64,000 bases of DNA, from NCBI RefSeq assembly GCF_900103425.1, contig NZ_FMXA01000005.1:1-64000 (forward strand). The letters are read 5' to 3'. Positions within the stretch are counted from its first letter, which is position 1. Each line of letters opens with the position of its first letter. Positions 582 through 7,417 of the stretch are shown one piece after another. The notes under the pieces are model-generated. The model was not told the origin of the DNA. It made no database searches and worked only from the letters and a program-made list of their open reading frames with translations. Origin of the DNA: Dialister histaminiformans (GTDB lineage Bacteria; Bacillota; Negativicutes; Veillonellales; Dialisteraceae). The position numbers and the translations under genes were made by a program.

Positions 582-610
582 TTGACTATTATTTGTATTG
601 TGACTTATAT
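582..610 (+). promoter_or_regulatory. Sigma-A type promoter for the B3/B4-domain gene
   Basis: TTGACT (582-587) and TTATAT (605-610) are separated by 17 bases. They lie about 35 bases ahead of the ATG at 644, which has GGAGG at 633-637. Confidence 0.7.
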
Positions 611-643
611 TATAAAAAATCTATATAATAATGGAGGTTTCTT

Positions 644-1357
644 ATGGAATTTTGTGTGGATAGTGAAATATTTAAGCTTTTTCCCGGGATACGTTTTGTT
701 TGTGTGATTGCCAAAGGCATTGATTCTGGAAAAATTAACAAAGAAGCTATTGAACATATGCTTCATGAAGGGTGGAGTGTTGCAGGGAAGGCGTCTGTCC
801 AGTATGGAAATCCGCAGTCCCATCCGAATATCAAACCGTGGGTGGCACGGCTGAAGGCTATTGGTGTATCCCGGAAAAAATTTCCAAATTCTATAGAATC
901 CATGGTTCGCAGAGCAGGAAAGGGAGGCGAACCTTTTCATATTATTCCTCTGGTCGATTTTTATAATTCTATTGCTTTATCGCATATAGTGCCAGCAGGT
1001 GGGTTTGATATTGATCAGATGCAGGAAGGACTTTCTTTGCGGTTATCCAGGGAAGGAGACCGGTTTATGGCTCTGGATGAAGAGAAAGAAATAAATGTTC
1101 CTGCTGGGGAAGTAAGCTATGCTGATGGAAATCAGATAGTCACCCGTCAGTTTGTGTGGAAGCAGGCAAAACACCTGCTGTTAAATGAAAAGACGAAGAA
1201 TGTATTCTTTGTATCGGAAATTCTGGGGGACCTGCCTTATGAGACGGCAGATAATGTGGCGAAAGCACTGGTCAATGGATTATGGAAATGTTTCGGCATT
1301 TCCACAACCGCCCATATTCTGGATGAGAGAAATACACATCTTGCCATCAATGAATAA
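644..1357 (+). CDS. B3/B4 (tRNA-editing-like) domain protein
   Basis: A 237-residue protein of the COG3382 type, a free-standing version of the B3/B4 domain found in the beta chain of phenylalanyl-tRNA synthetase, where it edits mischarged Tyr-tRNA(Phe). Family signs are the central PHIIPLVDFYNSIAL and PAGGFDID stretches and the later GD-N-IVTRQFVWKQ segment. Stand-alone members are cytoplasmic and have been proposed to act on amino acids or mischarged tRNA, but their substrate is not established. The gene is a single-gene unit: its own promoter lies at 582-610, GGAGG sits 6 bases before the ATG, and a terminator follows. The family call is firm; the substrate is unknown. Confidence 0.8.
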   Translation: MEFCVDSEIFKLFPGIRFVCVIAKGIDSGKINKEAIEHMLHEGWSVAGKASVQYGNPQSHPNIKPWVARLKAIGVSRKKFPNSIESMVRRAGKGGEPFHIIPLVDFYNSIALSHIVPAGGFDIDQMQEGLSLRLSREGDRFMALDEEKEINVPAGEVSYADGNQIVTRQFVWKQAKHLLLNEKTKNVFFVSEILGDLPYETADNVAKALVNGLWKCFGISTTAHILDERNTHLAINE

Positions 1358-1389
1358 CCACTGAGAGAAAAAACTGATTCCTGGCAATA

Positions 1390-1419
1390 AAAAAGCAGCG
1401 CTTTGGGGCGCTGCTTTTT
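1390..1419. terminator. Bidirectional terminator
   Basis: AAAAAGCAGCGC (1390-1401) pairs with GCGCTGCTTTT (1409-1419) around a short loop. There are A and T runs on both sides, so it can end the rightward B3/B4 gene and the leftward cupin gene. Confidence 0.85.
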
Positions 1420-1428
1420 GTATGCATA

Positions 1429-1770
1429 TCAATTGTCGTAAATAACAAGGCCCATGAACACCAGGTCTTCATCACCGATATTTTCCAGAGCATGGCGGTT
1501 TCCATTCTGACAGAACATGGCATCACCAGGCTTGACTTCGTAAGTGGTGTCATTATCAGTGTAGAGACCATGGCCGGAAAGGATGTAGTAGATTTCTCCA
1601 TCTCCCTTGTGCTGGTGCACACCCATGGAGCAGCCTTTTTCCAATGTAGCCTTTACATAGAGACGGCATTTTTCTTTTAAAGCGTCCGGGATGGTGACAG
1701 GCTGGAGAATGATGTGACCTTTACCGCCGTTGGCGTTTTCAATGATTTTAGATGGGATTTTGGGAAGCAT
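1429..1770 (-). CDS. Small single-domain cupin protein
   Basis: A 113-residue protein made of one cupin beta barrel. The first metal-binding motif is seen as GVHQHKGDGEIYYILSG (residues about 50-66), giving the His-x-His and Glu ligands. The second motif is GDAMFCQNGNRHALEN with its conserved His. Such small cupins bind a divalent metal and act as sugar- or acid-binding enzymes, isomerases or sensors; the sequence does not tell which. AAAGGAGG precedes the ATG at good spacing. The gene lies 83 bases downstream of the radical SAM gene and may be read with it. Function beyond the fold is unknown. Confidence 0.8.
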   Translation of the reverse strand: MLPKIPSKIIENANGGKGHIILQPVTIPDALKEKCRLYVKATLEKGCSMGVHQHKGDGEIYYILSGHGLYTDNDTTYEVKPGDAMFCQNGNRHALENIGDEDLVFMGLVIYDN

Positions 1771-1853
1771 AAGAATTCCTCCTTTAAAAGATAATCAACC
1801 GGTTTGAAAGTTGAACGTTCAGGATTCAGCTCATTTTTTCTGGTATTAATGCT

Positions 1854-2747
1854 TTATCGATTTACCCATTGGTATTCGTCCAGCTCTTCTTCGGATACAT
1901 TTCCTATTTTAACATGAGATAGGTATTTTCGTGCTATCTGCCCAAGAGATACCAGGGTGGAAAGCGGTGTAGGTGGACAATCGGTTAAGTGCCAGCAGGG
2001 GAAGAAACGGGTAATATGAAGAGGTATATCCTGATTCAGGGAACGGATCCATTTCACCATTTCTTCAAAAGTGGCAGGGTCATCGTTTTTTCCGGGAATT
2101 ACAAGATTGGTGAGTTCTACATGCGATTTCCCGACAGTGCGTTGGATGGTTTCCAACACAGGCTTTCTGGCAGCACCACAGATATTTCTGTAGAAATCTG
2201 GGTCCCAGCCTTTCAGGTCGATATTCCATGCGTCTATGAGAGGGAGAAGGATATCCAGTGCTTCACTGCTGATAAAACCGTTAGAAACCATTACATTAAC
2301 CATCCCCGCCTTTTTGATGAGAGGAGCTGTGTCCCGTATGAATTCAAGAGAAAGGGAAGGTTCATTGTACGTCCAGGCGACCCCGATGTTTCCCTCCACA
2401 GTAAGGGATTGGGCCAGACGTAGTACTTTTTCAGGAGAGAGTTTCCTGCTTTCCGCTTCTTTCTGTGAAATTTCAAAATTCTGGCAGAAAGTGCAGTTCA
2501 TATTGCATCCCCAGCTCCCCAGAGAAAGGATTCGGCTTCCGGGGTGAAACCAGGCCAGAGGTTTCTTTTCAATAGGATCCAGAGCAGCAGATGTAATAAG
2601 GCCATAGTTCAATGTTTTCAACATGCCATGATCATTCCACCGTGTGCGACACCATCCTCTGCGAGACGGAAGAATGCGGCATTGCCGTGGACAGACGCGG
2701 CAGATGCAGACGCCATTTTCTTTCTTATCATATAAAATTGATTCCAT
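1854..2747 (-). CDS. amrS: AmmeMemoRadiSam system radical SAM enzyme
   Basis: A 297-residue radical SAM protein. The cluster-binding motif is CNMNCTFCQNFE (Cys-x3-Cys-x2-Cys) at residues about 80-90. A second Cys-rich stretch at the N-terminus (CRVCPRQCRI, then RGWCRTR) is typical of the AmrS branch, which is related to pyruvate formate-lyase activases. YNEPSL and IDLKGWDPDFYR are further branch markers. Members occur with MEMO/LigB-like and AMMECR1 proteins, and the trio's reaction is not established. Here it follows the fused partner gene by 27 bases on the same strand, so it is clearly co-transcribed. I infer a radical-based modification by the trio with an unknown target. Confidence 0.88.
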   Translation of the reverse strand: MESILYDKKENGVCICRVCPRQCRILPSRRGWCRTRWNDHGMLKTLNYGLITSAALDPIEKKPLAWFHPGSRILSLGSWGCNMNCTFCQNFEISQKEAESRKLSPEKVLRLAQSLTVEGNIGVAWTYNEPSLSLEFIRDTAPLIKKAGMVNVMVSNGFISSEALDILLPLIDAWNIDLKGWDPDFYRNICGAARKPVLETIQRTVGKSHVELTNLVIPGKNDDPATFEEMVKWIRSLNQDIPLHITRFFPCWHLTDCPPTPLSTLVSLGQIARKYLSHVKIGNVSEEELDEYQWVNR

Positions 2748-2774
2748 AGTTATCTCCTGATGAATAACCAGTTA

Positions 2775-4124
2775 TTAAAAGTATCTCTTTACGGTGAATC
2801 GATAGAGTTTTATCGGTTCATCGTTTCTTATGCCAGCTTTTCTTCTGGCGATGTTTATTTGCTGTTCTGGTGAGTTAACGCCGTCAAGAGCAGGAAGAAG
2901 AAGGCCGCGACGGTTCCCGTTTTCTACGATGATGCCGTATTTTTTGACATTAAGGTCTGTAATTGCAGCCGGCTCGGGAGAGCTGAGAATATCGACAGAA
3001 ATGTCTAAATCGTCCAACTCATGTGCAGTGAGAGAAGGAAATCTGGGGTCATCCATGGCAGCCGCTCTTGCATTATGGATGATTTCTTCTGCTGTGTTTT
3101 TATAGCAGGGAAGGAAAGTTCCAATACAGCCTCTGAGGGCGCCGTACTTGTGGAGAGATACAAAGACACCGGCCCTTTTTTCCAGATCTGGTGCAAGCGG
3201 GGACGGAGTATCCATAATGGTTCCGTGTTCCAGGAAGTAACGTATACTTTCGCGGGCCAGCTTTACACGTACATCATGGACTGGTTCTTTTTCATCTTCT
3301 CCGTGGGGAAGATAAAGGCAGATTCCATATCCGACGCCAAAAGGACCTTCATGGGAGAAACAGGGCATGTCCGCTTTTCTTTGGCCCAGAATGCCGAAGA
3401 GAAAATAAACAGAAGGCAGGCCGCACATGGCAATTTCATAAATGAACTCCGGAGTCATGGATGTGAGAGGAGTTTTATCCCGTCTTCTCAGGGCGTTCAT
3501 GACTGCTTTATCGAAAAGTATTCCCTTCTCCGTATAACCGTTAGGAGACTCCGGAGTCAGCCGGTGAGAGAGGTCACCGGAAGCGATGACTCCAATCTTC
3601 CGCCCCAGTCTGGCAGCGGTGCGTTCCACTATGGTACCGAGAATTTCGTTTATTTCATAATTGGAAAAACAGGGAGAAAACATGACAGCTTTTCCTTTAA
3701 ATCCTGCTTTCTGCAGATAGTACATAGGAACAAAAGTACCCCAGTCTATGGTGAGAGTGCGGTTGTACCGGCGGGCCTCCGCTTCGTCTACCCGGTGCAG
3801 AGGAATCAGTGGGGCTGCTTCCTGCAGGACAGCTTCTGCCAGCATGCGGTCTATAGAAAGAGTCATGGAAAGCTGGGGATATCCAAAATCGGAAAGATTT
3901 CCGGAGATAGAATCGGCCAGGAAAAGAGCGGGACCATCATGAAAACAGAGATTATGCGGAGAAATGATAATCACAGTTTCTATACCTGAAGAAACCATTT
4001 TATGCATTGCTTCCTCTTCTGTTTTTATGGTGAGGGCCATACGGGAAAGCTCCCTGCCTCCAATCTCTGGAATCATGACAGGCGGATGAGGGAAAAGGCC
4101 AGCCGCTTTACATGTGGTTTTCAT
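2775..4124 (-). CDS. Fused LigB/MEMO-like and AMMECR1 protein of the AmmeMemoRadiSam system
   Basis: A 449-residue two-domain protein. Residues 1 to about 260 form a LigB/MEMO-like domain related to class III extradiol dioxygenases, seen in LFPHPPVMIPEIG, ISPHN and IASGDLSHRLTPESPNG, which carry likely metal ligands (His, His, Asp). Residues about 275-449 are AMMECR1, seen in GVFVSLHKYGALRGCIGTF and DDPRFPSLTAHELDDL. The two are often separate genes (proteins B and A of the system); here they are one chain. I choose the ATG at 4124, 8 bases after AGGAAG, rather than a GTG at 4148 with no ribosome site. It heads a leftward operon with amrS. The substrate is unknown. Confidence 0.85.
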   Translation of the reverse strand: MKTTCKAAGLFPHPPVMIPEIGGRELSRMALTIKTEEEAMHKMVSSGIETVIIISPHNLCFHDGPALFLADSISGNLSDFGYPQLSMTLSIDRMLAEAVLQEAAPLIPLHRVDEAEARRYNRTLTIDWGTFVPMYYLQKAGFKGKAVMFSPCFSNYEINEILGTIVERTAARLGRKIGVIASGDLSHRLTPESPNGYTEKGILFDKAVMNALRRRDKTPLTSMTPEFIYEIAMCGLPSVYFLFGILGQRKADMPCFSHEGPFGVGYGICLYLPHGEDEKEPVHDVRVKLARESIRYFLEHGTIMDTPSPLAPDLEKRAGVFVSLHKYGALRGCIGTFLPCYKNTAEEIIHNARAAAMDDPRFPSLTAHELDDLDISVDILSSPEPAAITDLNVKKYGIIVENGNRRGLLLPALDGVNSPEQQINIARRKAGIRNDEPIKLYRFTVKRYF

Positions 4125-4347
4125 TAGAAGCACTTCCTTTCTAATCACTTTTTACCTTAAGTGTAGTTGGTTTTGTGGGGAAAATCAAAAATGATGGAGT
4201 ACGGTGAGACGCGCAATGATTGGCCTGCGTAATGGCACGGATTAAGGATATTCCTGTACGACCGGAAATAAAAAGAACCGCAGTTTATTGCCTGGGATGG
4301 GCATGGACTGCCGGATGGGAAACAGGCCATCTGACATATCTCTATAT

Positions 4348-4389
4348 GACAGAAAAAATGCAGCTTATACGGGTTGCATTTTTTCTGTC
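4348..4389. terminator. Bidirectional terminator hairpin
   Basis: A perfect 15-bp stem (4348-4362 with 4375-4389) contains A6 and T6 runs inside its arms. It could act in both directions. Confidence 0.7.
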
Positions 4390-4626
4390 TGTTAATTCAT
4401 GTGGAGAAGGGAGGATTTTGGTATCGGAACGGGAGATGAGATAAAGGTCATCAATAAGAAGTCAGACATCGGACTGGGAACCCCAAGGCTTCTCTATCAG
4501 TCCCAAAGCTTGATTAAGAATACTGCCGGTAATCATAACTTTTTAAGAGGAACAACGATTCGTACTTTTCCCTTTGGTATCTTTTTCGCTGATGTTCTTT
4601 TTATCTGATAATGTACTCCGGCCAGC

Positions 4627-4664
4627 AAAAAGGACTTCCATTTAGATTAGGAAGTCCTTTTTTA
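4627..4664. terminator. Bidirectional terminator hairpin
   Basis: A perfect 13-bp stem (4627-4639 with 4650-4662) has A5 at its left edge and T6 at its right edge. It fits as a terminator in either direction. Confidence 0.75.
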
Positions 4665-4765
4665 ACTGTCAGTTTAGTCAAAGAGAAACCCTGAAGGAGG
4701 ATTCTGACTGAATTCTTTGTGGCTTTGTTTTCATGAGTCTGTTTTAAATAATGTCCTGTAAAGTC

Positions 4766-4828
4766 AAAACACTCCGGTTTCCTGTGCAGAATGTATGATG
4801 ATATCTGACAGGAAACCGGAGTGCTTTT
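4766..4828 (-). terminator. Terminator of the DUF4127 gene
   Basis: A perfect 16-bp stem (4770-4785 with 4808-4823). Read leftward it is followed by a T4 run, and it lies just past the stop of the DUF4127 gene. A T run also exists on the right side. Confidence 0.75.
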
Positions 4829-4862
4829 CTGTTCTGTATATTGTTTTGCGTGCGGTAGGGGA

Positions 4863-6548
4863 TTAATTCCACTGTACATCCACAACCTGAGAAGGCTGTT
4901 CTGTGCTCTCCAGTGCGGCAGCGGCTTCTTCTGCTTTCTTTTTTGCTTCTTCTTCCGCTATGCGCTGCTTTTCCGCCAGAGTCAGGATATGTTCATAAGA
5001 TGGAGTATCCGATACATAGGCATGAATTTCAAAGAAACGGTCCCATGGGAAGTCTGCATATACAGTCTGCGGATCTACACCCATTTTCTTCTGCGCAAAG
5101 TCCTGAAGCTCCGCTACCATTTCCTCACGAATTACGGGAGAAATCTTCTGATTTCCGGTGGCAGGGTACGAACTTTCCATGCGGTAGAGATTCTTACGAA
5201 CATTGGCCTGATAAGCCCAGTTGTCCAGATATTGTTCCAGAAGCATGTCTTTGTGTGCCTGTTCGTTCATGGCCGGAGCCAGTATGGCCTGCGCGATGGC
5301 GTAACCAATCGTATTGCTTGCCGTGTTCCAGCCATTATATGCGGCTACCTTATAGAGCAGGTCGTTTTCTGAGAGCAGGCTCATCAGGGTATTGTCTGAT
5401 CCGTTATTAAAATATACATCCACAATGGATACAGGGACATTACTGTCCGCATATTTCTTAATAGTGTCCACGAAGTCTATAGTGCTCTGCTTTTTCATGC
5501 TGAAGTTTTCAAAACGTCCGGATTCCTTCGTATTAAAGAGCGGAGTATTTATGGCTAGCATGATATCCGGATTGGCATTGTCTGTAATGGTTCCATTGAC
5601 GGCTTCGATATGTTCCTTAATGGTCTTTCCAATTGGCTGGCTTTCATAGCTGGGGACGGTTTCTTCGCCGCGGCCCAGAGGATAAATCACGCCAAAGGTG
5701 GGGTGAAGCTTATTGGAATCCACATAGTACCGGGCAATCAGAAGGAGAGCCAGCTGGTCGGCACCGGGGAAGGAGCCATACCGTGTAGACTTCAGACCTT
5801 TGGCATCTTTGGCCAGATATCTGGATTCCATGGCGGACTGTGAATATTCAGAACTGTCATCATGACCGAGGCAAAAATAGGTAAAGGTGTTATTTTTCAC
5901 ATCCTGGATTAATTCCTTATTGATGGTATTGTTTTTCTGTCGGCGGTCAAACCAGTCCTGAAGATATTCTACCGGTACGGACTGCTTCAGTGAAGTCAGT
6001 TGCGCCTTTTCCTTATCGGTAATAGTGCCTTGGTCCTGTTTATCCTGGAGGATAGAAATCTGATAAATCTTATTTCCATAGGTCCCGTAATAATACGGTT
6101 CTACTCCGGAATTTGAGGCATAAGGAGAACGCATAATAGTTCCAAAACCATAAAGGGGAATCTTAGGATTGTTCTTGTGAAGAAGTTCAATGCGATTTTC
6201 TCTGCTCTGCAGGGTAGCCAGAGATTCATTATGCTTACGGGAATCTACCAGGCCTCCGTAAATAAGAGTGTCTGTGGACAGAATGGCAGCATCTGACTTG
6301 GAAATATTATCTTCTACCCAGCTCCAGACTCTGTCTGCGTTTCCCTTATAATTGGAACCGGAAAGGATGGACTCCGGTGGAGTCAGCACTTGGTATCCCG
6401 CATGTTCAGCGGTGGACACCGTATAAGCAAGGCTTACCGGTCGATTATCCTGTGGAACCAGTAGTATGGTTTGGGCAGAAACGGACAGACAGGTAAGAGC
6501 GCAGGCAGCAGCCGTTGCTGCACTAAATAAGGATTTTATAATTCTCAA
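4863..6548 (-). CDS. Secreted DUF4127 family protein
   Basis: A 561-residue exported protein of family DUF4127 (PF13552), whose function is unknown. Recognisable parts are the early VPQDNRPVS segment, IYGGLVDSRKH, FGTIMRSPYA and the GHDDSSEYSQSAMES block. I set the start at TTG 6548: GGGAGG lies 6 bases ahead, and the product then opens with a normal signal peptide (MRIIKSLFS, a hydrophobic core, SVSA then QT as likely cleavage site). An ATG at 6617 would overlap the upstream gene and spoil the signal peptide. The C-terminus is a Lys/Glu/Ala-rich, probably helical tail (AEEEAKKKAEEAAAALE). It follows the TRIC-like gene by 16 bases, so the two form an operon. Confidence 0.82.
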   Translation of the reverse strand: MRIIKSLFSAATAAACALTCLSVSAQTILLVPQDNRPVSLAYTVSTAEHAGYQVLTPPESILSGSNYKGNADRVWSWVEDNISKSDAAILSTDTLIYGGLVDSRKHNESLATLQSRENRIELLHKNNPKIPLYGFGTIMRSPYASNSGVEPYYYGTYGNKIYQISILQDKQDQGTITDKEKAQLTSLKQSVPVEYLQDWFDRRQKNNTINKELIQDVKNNTFTYFCLGHDDSSEYSQSAMESRYLAKDAKGLKSTRYGSFPGADQLALLLIARYYVDSNKLHPTFGVIYPLGRGEETVPSYESQPIGKTIKEHIEAVNGTITDNANPDIMLAINTPLFNTKESGRFENFSMKKQSTIDFVDTIKKYADSNVPVSIVDVYFNNGSDNTLMSLLSENDLLYKVAAYNGWNTASNTIGYAIAQAILAPAMNEQAHKDMLLEQYLDNWAYQANVRKNLYRMESSYPATGNQKISPVIREEMVAELQDFAQKKMGVDPQTVYADFPWDRFFEIHAYVSDTPSYEHILTLAEKQRIAEEEAKKKAEEAAAALESTEQPSQVVDVQWN

Positions 6549-6564
6549 GATTAACCTCCCGAAT

Positions 6565-7215
6565 TCAGAGTTTGAAATAAATATGTCTAGGACGCGGATG
6601 ATGCAGCTGCCAGCCATAACGGATGGCTAATACACGGAGAAGGGTAACAAACAGGAAACAGCACCAGGATGCGATGGCTGAGCCAAGTGGTTCCCATAAA
6701 CAGACAATCAGTATGCCGCCCAATATGGATGCAAAAGCATAAAAATCCGTTTTCAGGACTACGGGAACGCGATGTGCCAGTATATCCCGAAAAATACCAC
6801 CGCCAATGGCAGTAATAAGCCCCAGAGTTACCGGAAGGATTATTGAACTTTCAGGATACAAGGTAAGGCCGGTAACGGCCCCGGTCACGGTGAACGATGC
6901 CAAACCCAGTGTATCTGAAATATTATAGACTATGGCAATAATCCGTTTTCCCTTCCGACTGAATTTTACGGTTTCAAAAAGAAAACATACAAACAGGGAA
7001 GTTATGATAGATAGTATGAATCCATAAGGATGTACCAAGGTGGTCGGTGGGATGACACCTACCAGAACATCGCGGAGAATTCCGCCACCAACGGCTGTGA
7101 GGACGGCAAGGACAGTTATTCCAAAAATATCCATGCGCTTTATAATTCCTACTATGGCACCGGAAAAGGCAAATGCAATAATGCCTATAATGTCAAAAAC
7201 AGCAGCTGTTGTCAT
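6565..7215 (-). CDS. TRIC-type (UPF0126) membrane protein
   Basis: A 216-residue integral membrane protein with two homologous three-helix halves, each carrying the hallmark glycine-rich motif followed by Arg-Asp: GGGILRDVL in the first half and GGGIFRDIL in the second. This is the YadS/YicG family, related to trimeric intracellular cation channels; some bacterial members are described as glycine transporters. It sits in the cytoplasmic membrane. The gene begins the operon that continues into the DUF4127 gene. The family is certain; ion versus amino-acid transport cannot be decided from sequence. Confidence 0.85.
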   Translation of the reverse strand: MTTAAVFDIIGIIAFAFSGAIVGIIKRMDIFGITVLAVLTAVGGGILRDVLVGVIPPTTLVHPYGFILSIITSLFVCFLFETVKFSRKGKRIIAIVYNISDTLGLASFTVTGAVTGLTLYPESSIILPVTLGLITAIGGGIFRDILAHRVPVVLKTDFYAFASILGGILIVCLWEPLGSAIASWCCFLFVTLLRVLAIRYGWQLHHPRPRHIYFKL

Positions 7216-7417
7216 AATTATTCCCTTTATTTTAAACTCTGTTCAATAATGTACAGAAAATTATGGATATTCTCATTATAGACGTGGGGAGAAGGCTTTT
7301 TCAAGGCACAGAAAAGTGTGGAAATAATACAGAAGTGAGAGAACAGAAGACATTAATATGTTTTTAAACAAAATATATTTAATGTATAATGAAATATACA
7401 GGCAAGGAGGAACATTT

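Follow-up and report, generated by a model that had tools for sequence, protein, structure and literature searches.

A LigB-type AmmeMemoRadiSam locus with fused A and B parts in Dialister histaminiformans, and its lineage-limited cupin neighbour

A compact locus of Dialister histaminiformans encodes a LigB–AMMECR1 fusion protein (AB) followed by a radical SAM enzyme, and we hold, with even confidence, that this is the LigB-type AmmeMemoRadiSam locus in its standard form, found in an anaerobe and working as an O2-independent radical SAM modification system. It is an ordinary copy of a common system in its usual fused form and adds little by itself. A cupin gene next to the pair is read as a lineage-limited companion, not as a core member. 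The window, by which we mean the whole 64,000-nucleotide stretch that was analysed, begins with base 1 of its contig, and the sequence past the cupin gene is limited to 1.4 kb. The source genome comprises 1.70 Mb in 40 contigs and contains a single AMMECR1 match. The features of the locus are as follows.

1390 to 1419, minus strand: terminator-like hairpin after the cupin gene (12-bp stem, T run, z −6.1)
1429 to 1770, minus strand: Cupin_2 gene, 113 aa, by Pfam
1854 to 2747, minus strand: AmmeMemoRadiSam-type radical SAM gene, 297 aa, by Pfam and NCBIfam models
2775 to 4124, minus strand: gene for the LigB–AMMECR1 fusion (AB), 449 aa, ATG start at 4124
AB residues about 4 to 274: LigB domain, with proposed metal ligands H13, H57 and E259, and H187
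AB residues about 281 to 449: AMMECR1 domain, with LRGCIG at 330 to 335

Open reading frames and Pfam models confirmed the layout proposed by a sequence-only reading of this DNA, namely a LigB/MEMO-like and an AMMECR1 domain on one chain with a radical SAM gene 27 bases further on (spacer at bases 2748–2774). An alternative reading of AB is the minus-strand ORF 2775–4148, which starts with GTG at 4148 and yields 457 residues. Because AGAAAGGAAG is found 5′ of the ATG at 4124 and the alignment of the closest relatives of AB begins there, this ATG is the better start, and the GTG 24 bases upstream is possible and less likely. The radical SAM and cupin genes are separated by 83 bases. A terminator scan of the minus strand gave no site in the gap between them, a weak negative since the same scan missed the hairpin after the cupin gene. 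As judged from the sequence, the AB, radical SAM and cupin genes plausibly form one transcript. A 19-pair hairpin with T runs at window positions 4348–4389, within the 0.7-kb gap ahead of AB, is probably the terminator of the preceding gene. No RNA family reached its gathering score within window positions 600–7300, and the promoter scan returned a single site, on the opposite strand, fewer than the shuffle mean of 5.1.

Both domains of AB were recognized by Pfam on the same chain, LigB (PF02900) with E 5.6e-27 and 94.9 bits against a cut-off of 26.3, and AMMECR1 (PF01871) with E 7.9e-46; in the 457-residue reading they span residues 18–276 and 295–455, respectively. Among the NCBIfam models, AB passed TIGR04335 (AmmeMemoRadiSam protein A) with 138 bits, the cut-off being 99. 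The predicted structure, with a mean pLDDT of 93.9, a pTM of 0.68 and one low-confidence stretch at residues 277–280, suggests two well-defined domains joined by a loose linker, their relative orientation being uncertain. By structure comparison, residues 4–274 matched TK2203 (5hee; Z 32.5, rmsd 2.1, 253 aligned), extradiol dioxygenases (Z 22–28) and human MEMO1, which has the same fold (Z 19.1), and residues 281–449 matched the archaeal AMMECR1 protein PH0010 (1vaj; Z 21.4). The closest named AB protein is that of Dialister succinatiphilus, at 79% identity.

Residue conservation was examined in 48 aligned AB sequences drawn from 76 long ones. In the LigB part, H13, H57, D184, S186 and H187 were present in 48/48 and E259 in 47/48; in the AMMECR1 part, G332, C333, I334, G335, T336, D359, R361 and F362 were present in all 48. 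Across all 76 proteins, H13, H57, H187 and the run G332-C333-I334-G335-T336 were invariant, and E259 was found in 74. AB has a complete 2-His-1-Glu site and the catalytic His (H13, H57, E259 and H187), and by motif reading these would correspond to H12/H61/E242/H195, the active-site residues of LigB in the accessible parts of PMC11081632 and PMC11926856. The AB fold, the two His and one Glu ligand and His187 are shared with LigAB, DesB, aminophenol dioxygenase and TK2203. AMMECR1 occurs in 50.66% of anaerobes versus 3.38% of aerobes, going by the table columns as read in the accessible part of PMC13386939, and this bias together with the complete extradiol-type metal site points to chemistry without O2.

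AB differs from class III extradiol dioxygenases in its anaerobic hosts, its fusion to AMMECR1, its failure to match an equivalog model, and a Trp in place of the second-sphere His. This substrate His (H127 of LigB) corresponds to W128 of AB by motif, not by structure, and with W128 in its place substrate handling may differ. Position 128 (window 3741–3743) was His in 40 of the 48 sequences, Trp in six (this protein, two from Dialister and three from other loci) and Gln in two, which are from Megasphaera. The His of the LDHG motif varies at this position while the metal ligands remain nearly invariant.

The sequence-only reading had called the locus an AmmeMemoRadiSam locus, which the A and radical SAM models bear out and the B model does not. 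AB scored 15.9 bits with TIGR04336, the model for the Memo-type protein B, against a cut-off of 26, and its N-terminal domain belongs to the LigB type, whereas AmmeMemoRadiSam B is defined by a Memo-type protein. Pfam gave no match to Memo (PF01875) in AB or in the 40 contigs of the source genome, and the His-His-Cys site of Memo is absent from AB, whose third ligand is Glu. The likeness to AmmeMemoRadiSam systems consists of the AMMECR1 and radical SAM matches, a third part of LigB/Memo fold and adjacent genes; the differences are that this third part is LigB-type and that A and B form one chain, as is usual in this phylum. Memo–AMMECR1 systems were reportedly defined by Burroughs et al. in 2019 (J Biol Chem), a paper cited in PMC7159879. 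MEMO1 is not known to have a radical SAM partner in animals. According to the accessible part of PMC11081632, the iron site of MEMO1 is formed by H49, H81 and C244, and dioxygenase activity was undetected on the substrates its authors tried. The third ligand is thus Cys in MEMO1 and Glu259 in AB.

Three of 300 class genomes, all from one genus, matched Memo strongly (E below 1e-40). The other 10 Memo matches in the class were weak, at E 1.8e-8 or worse, with six passing the Pfam cut-off; they are taken as cross-hits to LigB domains, and two LigB proteins show such cross-matching. The border between Memo and LigB is soft, as some LigB-type relatives weakly pass the Pfam Memo cut-off. In two of the three genomes with a strong match, the Memo protein is full length, has AMMECR1 as its C-terminal part and is encoded next to the same radical SAM gene; in the third, it is truncated by the end of the contig. 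LigB and Memo appear to occupy the same slot in the same order. The two AMMECR1 domains linked to Memo scored 63–65 bits versus 142–187 for those linked to LigB, and judged by these scores alone we infer that the Memo and LigB fusions may have arisen separately. The two Memo–AMMECR1 genes, at 2446–3948 on the minus strand of locus L170 and 4626–6134 on the plus strand of L171, share one domain order with AB and make up a second kind of B–A fusion.

The trio had been described as widespread, and it is. AMMECR1 was found in 228 of 299 phylum genomes, and the radical SAM gene adjoined all 30 of the phylum loci inspected, with just its beginning in L191 and L199. The statement that its reaction is not established also stands, as our literature search gave no paper with a reaction. 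The fusion had been treated as special, which it is not. Among the 150 AMMECR1 matches listed for the phylum, 140 lie in frames of at least 380 codons and 10 in frames of at most 300, and 29 of the 30 inspected loci have LigB and AMMECR1 on one chain (one of them cut by a contig end), the remaining one being split. AMMECR1 was present in 194 of 300 class genomes; among the 150 class matches listed, 109 are in frames of at least 380 codons and 41 in frames of at most 300, so that fusion is the majority form and unfused AMMECR1 a genuine minority.

AB profile matches at E ≤0.001, fused or not, were obtained in 212 of 300 class genomes, and those listed run from query residue 8 or before to 445 or beyond, five of them containing a stop. 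Split AB genes were seen as neighbouring ORFs 12 bases apart in L100 and 18 in L108, and L103 and L104 are also split. The relatives in which a stop codon splits the chain and the low-confidence linker also speak against its being special. The idea that fusion puts the partners at one place holds to the extent that it argues for a shared complex, and the fusion tells nothing new about this locus.

Closer to D. histaminiformans the set is patchy, with full-length AB in 5 of 12 family genomes and 17 of 61 order genomes (E 1e-100 or better), and it is therefore dispensable there. Nine further genomes of the order gave weak AB matches, G127 at E 1.8e-32 and eight at about 1e-11 to 1e-14; G127, the one inspected, contains an AB fragment of 294 codons. 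Of the 154 class genomes with full-length AB (E ≤1e-100), 149 also match the radical SAM model TIGR04337 at E ≤1e-42. The five with a weak radical SAM match or none (G011, G058, G183, G200 and G233) count against an explanation by joint action. G011 is an incomplete genome; the other four are near-complete, and in these AB may function by itself or its radical SAM partner may have been lost.

The cupin protein matched Cupin_2 with E 7.9e-17 in Pfam, and its H52, H54, E59 and H93 were conserved in 24/24 sequences. The gene had been suggested as a fourth member of the locus, and within the order this has some substance: it follows the pair on the same strand in 14 of the 17 genomes with full-length AB, its distance from the radical SAM gene ranging from 12 bases to about 3 kb. 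Of the other three, G011 is a fragment that lacks a radical SAM match, and G054 and G091 have the cupin gene elsewhere in the genome. An ORF comparison of four Dialister-family loci (stretches of 17–18 kb in three and 13 kb in the window) identified the cupin as the only gene besides the pair present in two or more, with 12 to 415 nt between it and the preceding radical SAM gene in the ORFs picked.

That the cupin is a true fourth enzyme, working as a single unit with AB and the radical SAM enzyme in this order, is conceivable and on balance doubtful. Its position, its being the sole other gene shared in the Dialister family, its invariant residues and the hairpin terminator after its gene all favour such a unit, whereas a profile search in the ORFs of 80 named loci detected it only in the four from Dialister and Megasphaera (L007–L010) and in none of the 76 of other lineages. 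Its location apart from the pair in G054 and G091 also speaks against the unit, as do seven order genomes (G008, G009, G010, G127, G182, G226 and G238) in which the cupin (E below 1e-15) is present and full-length AB is not. Three of these, G182, G226 and G238 (L164–L166), place it immediately behind the gene that stands ahead of AB in the Megasphaera family, which looks as though the pair had been lost and the cupin retained. The supposition that the cupin might never be conserved beside the pair fails in this order. The cupin as a universal member of the trio was rejected.

We then consider the wider neighbourhood, for which the 80 named loci (up to 8 kb on each side, many shorter) and the window made a sample of 81. 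An ORF of the AB cluster was present in 78; L017, L053 and L074, whose AB ORF did not cluster, were left out, and the AB ORF of L055 and L059 comprises just the LigB part. The radical SAM gene was found in 72 of the 78 AB loci, on the same strand in 72/72, after AB in 70 and within 200 nt in 64; of the six loci without it, two (L024 and L039) reach a contig edge soon after AB. A cell-wall amidase gene, assigned from one tested member, recurs near AB in 29 loci. A LysE-like gene, its cluster likewise assigned from one tested member (PF01810), precedes AB in the same orientation in 23 of 78 loci (L015 and 22 others), most of which have Desulfotomaculum-like titles; in 22 it is no more than 600 bases away. 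Genes named by eye as argJ-like and argC-like occur in 15 and 14 loci, and ribosomal protein genes, also named by eye, are among the frequent neighbours. In the Megasphaera family, 9 of the 10 loci that keep the cupin have a LarAH10 racemase gene between it and the radical SAM gene (one member tested, 612.8 bits, cut-off 540). These nine are L149, L150 and L153–L159; in L146, from Dialister, a homologue is located upstream on the other strand.

Such neighbours would suit a pathway in which the trio makes a diffusible small molecule, further shaped by the cupin or LarA and exported by LysE-type transporters where present. The LysE-like gene ahead of AB, the inserted LarAH10 gene and the cupin that follows the pair in this order all fit with it. 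We nevertheless regard this pathway as unlikely, because the LysE-like gene belongs mostly to Desulfotomaculum-like loci and LarA and the cupin to this order, and because the other frequent neighbours (amidase, arginine biosynthesis and ribosomal proteins) resemble housekeeping genes. The proposed survey of neighbours of fused AB proteins has found the cupin recurring in the order and no neighbour that indicates a substrate; recurring neighbours are lineage-bound.

The radical SAM protein matched Radical_SAM (PF04055) in Pfam with E 1.3e-19 and TIGR04337 in NCBIfam with 247.2 bits (cut-off 220). Its cysteines include CX3CX2C at C81/C85/C88 and an N-terminal group at C16, C19, C23 and C33, both conserved in 70/70 radical SAM proteins (a cluster of 73 minus three shorter ORFs). 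A C-terminal extension with four cysteines, which a pattern search detects in 50 of the 70 relatives, is absent from this enzyme. Selenocysteine was considered on account of in-frame TGA codons in several strong class matches and was dropped, as the TGA stands at the protein end in three of the four regions inspected and the fourth ends at TAG. The nearest solved structure is pyruvate formate-lyase activating enzyme (PFL-AE), by a clear margin (Z 25.0, rmsd 2.2, 227 aligned), with NifB next (Z 18.3), and the likeness to PFL-AE covers the radical SAM core, CX3CX2C and an aligned DLK stretch.

PFL-AE activates its glycyl radical enzyme. The radical SAM enzyme might in the same manner modify or activate AB at the invariant RGCIG, after which AB would be the catalyst, and the structural match, the Cys and both Gly of RGCIG in 48/48 sequences and the tight pairing of the two genes agree with such a role. 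We find it quite improbable: R[VI][SATCG]G[YF], which we take to be the glycyl radical motif, occurs in 0/76 AB proteins, and the NCBIfam activase models stay far under their cut-offs (YjjW 65.4 versus 250.2, PFLA 58.6 versus 231.75). The AMMECR1 motif is moreover placed by the structure model on a strand (329–335), not on a free loop, and the extra N-terminal cysteines set the radical SAM enzyme apart from PFL-AE.

That AB is an ordinary dioxygenase which cleaves rings with O2 and was joined to AMMECR1 by chance can be very nearly dismissed, for its full 2-His-1-Glu site and the strong match of its fold to ring-cleaving enzymes are outweighed by AMMECR1 being an anaerobe marker, by the named host lineages, which are anaerobes, by an HpaD model score of 46.6 versus a cut-off of 315.95, by a fusion that recurs phylum-wide beside a radical SAM gene, and by W128 where the substrate-binding His is expected.

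We return to the preferred reading, an O2-independent modification system; everything in it beyond sequence, fold and linkage is inference. The three activities would share one substrate. The radical SAM enzyme would cleave SAM and remove a hydrogen atom from the substrate, supplying the oxidation, while the AMMECR1 domain would hold the substrate near the invariant cysteine of LRGCIG. The LigB domain, whose complete 2-His-1-Glu site is expected to bind Fe(II), would orient or finish the substrate without O2, and the fusion would hold the substrate-binding site and the metal site together. The cupin would accompany the system in Dialister and Megasphaera relatives as an optional metal-binding protein. 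As a weak first guess, the substrate might be a nucleobase or a protein side chain, since RlmN, TYW1 and PFL-AE, which are related radical SAM enzymes, have targets of these kinds. To our knowledge, eukaryotes keep MEMO1 and AMMECR1 without this radical SAM enzyme. It would be a long shot to propose that LigB is an O2-free version of the extradiol site, in which the radical SAM enzyme replaces oxidation by O2 on a substrate delivered by AMMECR1, that eukaryotes use O2 for this step, and that the cupin adds a metal-dependent step in Dialister and Megasphaera relatives.

The conservation of the cupin in one order is a modest local detail, of which our literature search on the trio gave no description. 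For practical use, the locus offers a compact two-gene form with A and B on one chain, and, in this order, a short AB–radical SAM–cupin unit that can be deleted or expressed as a set. Since AMMECR1 marks anaerobes strongly and the two parts other than the radical SAM enzyme have human relatives in MEMO1 and AMMECR1, any solved substrate of the system would matter widely.
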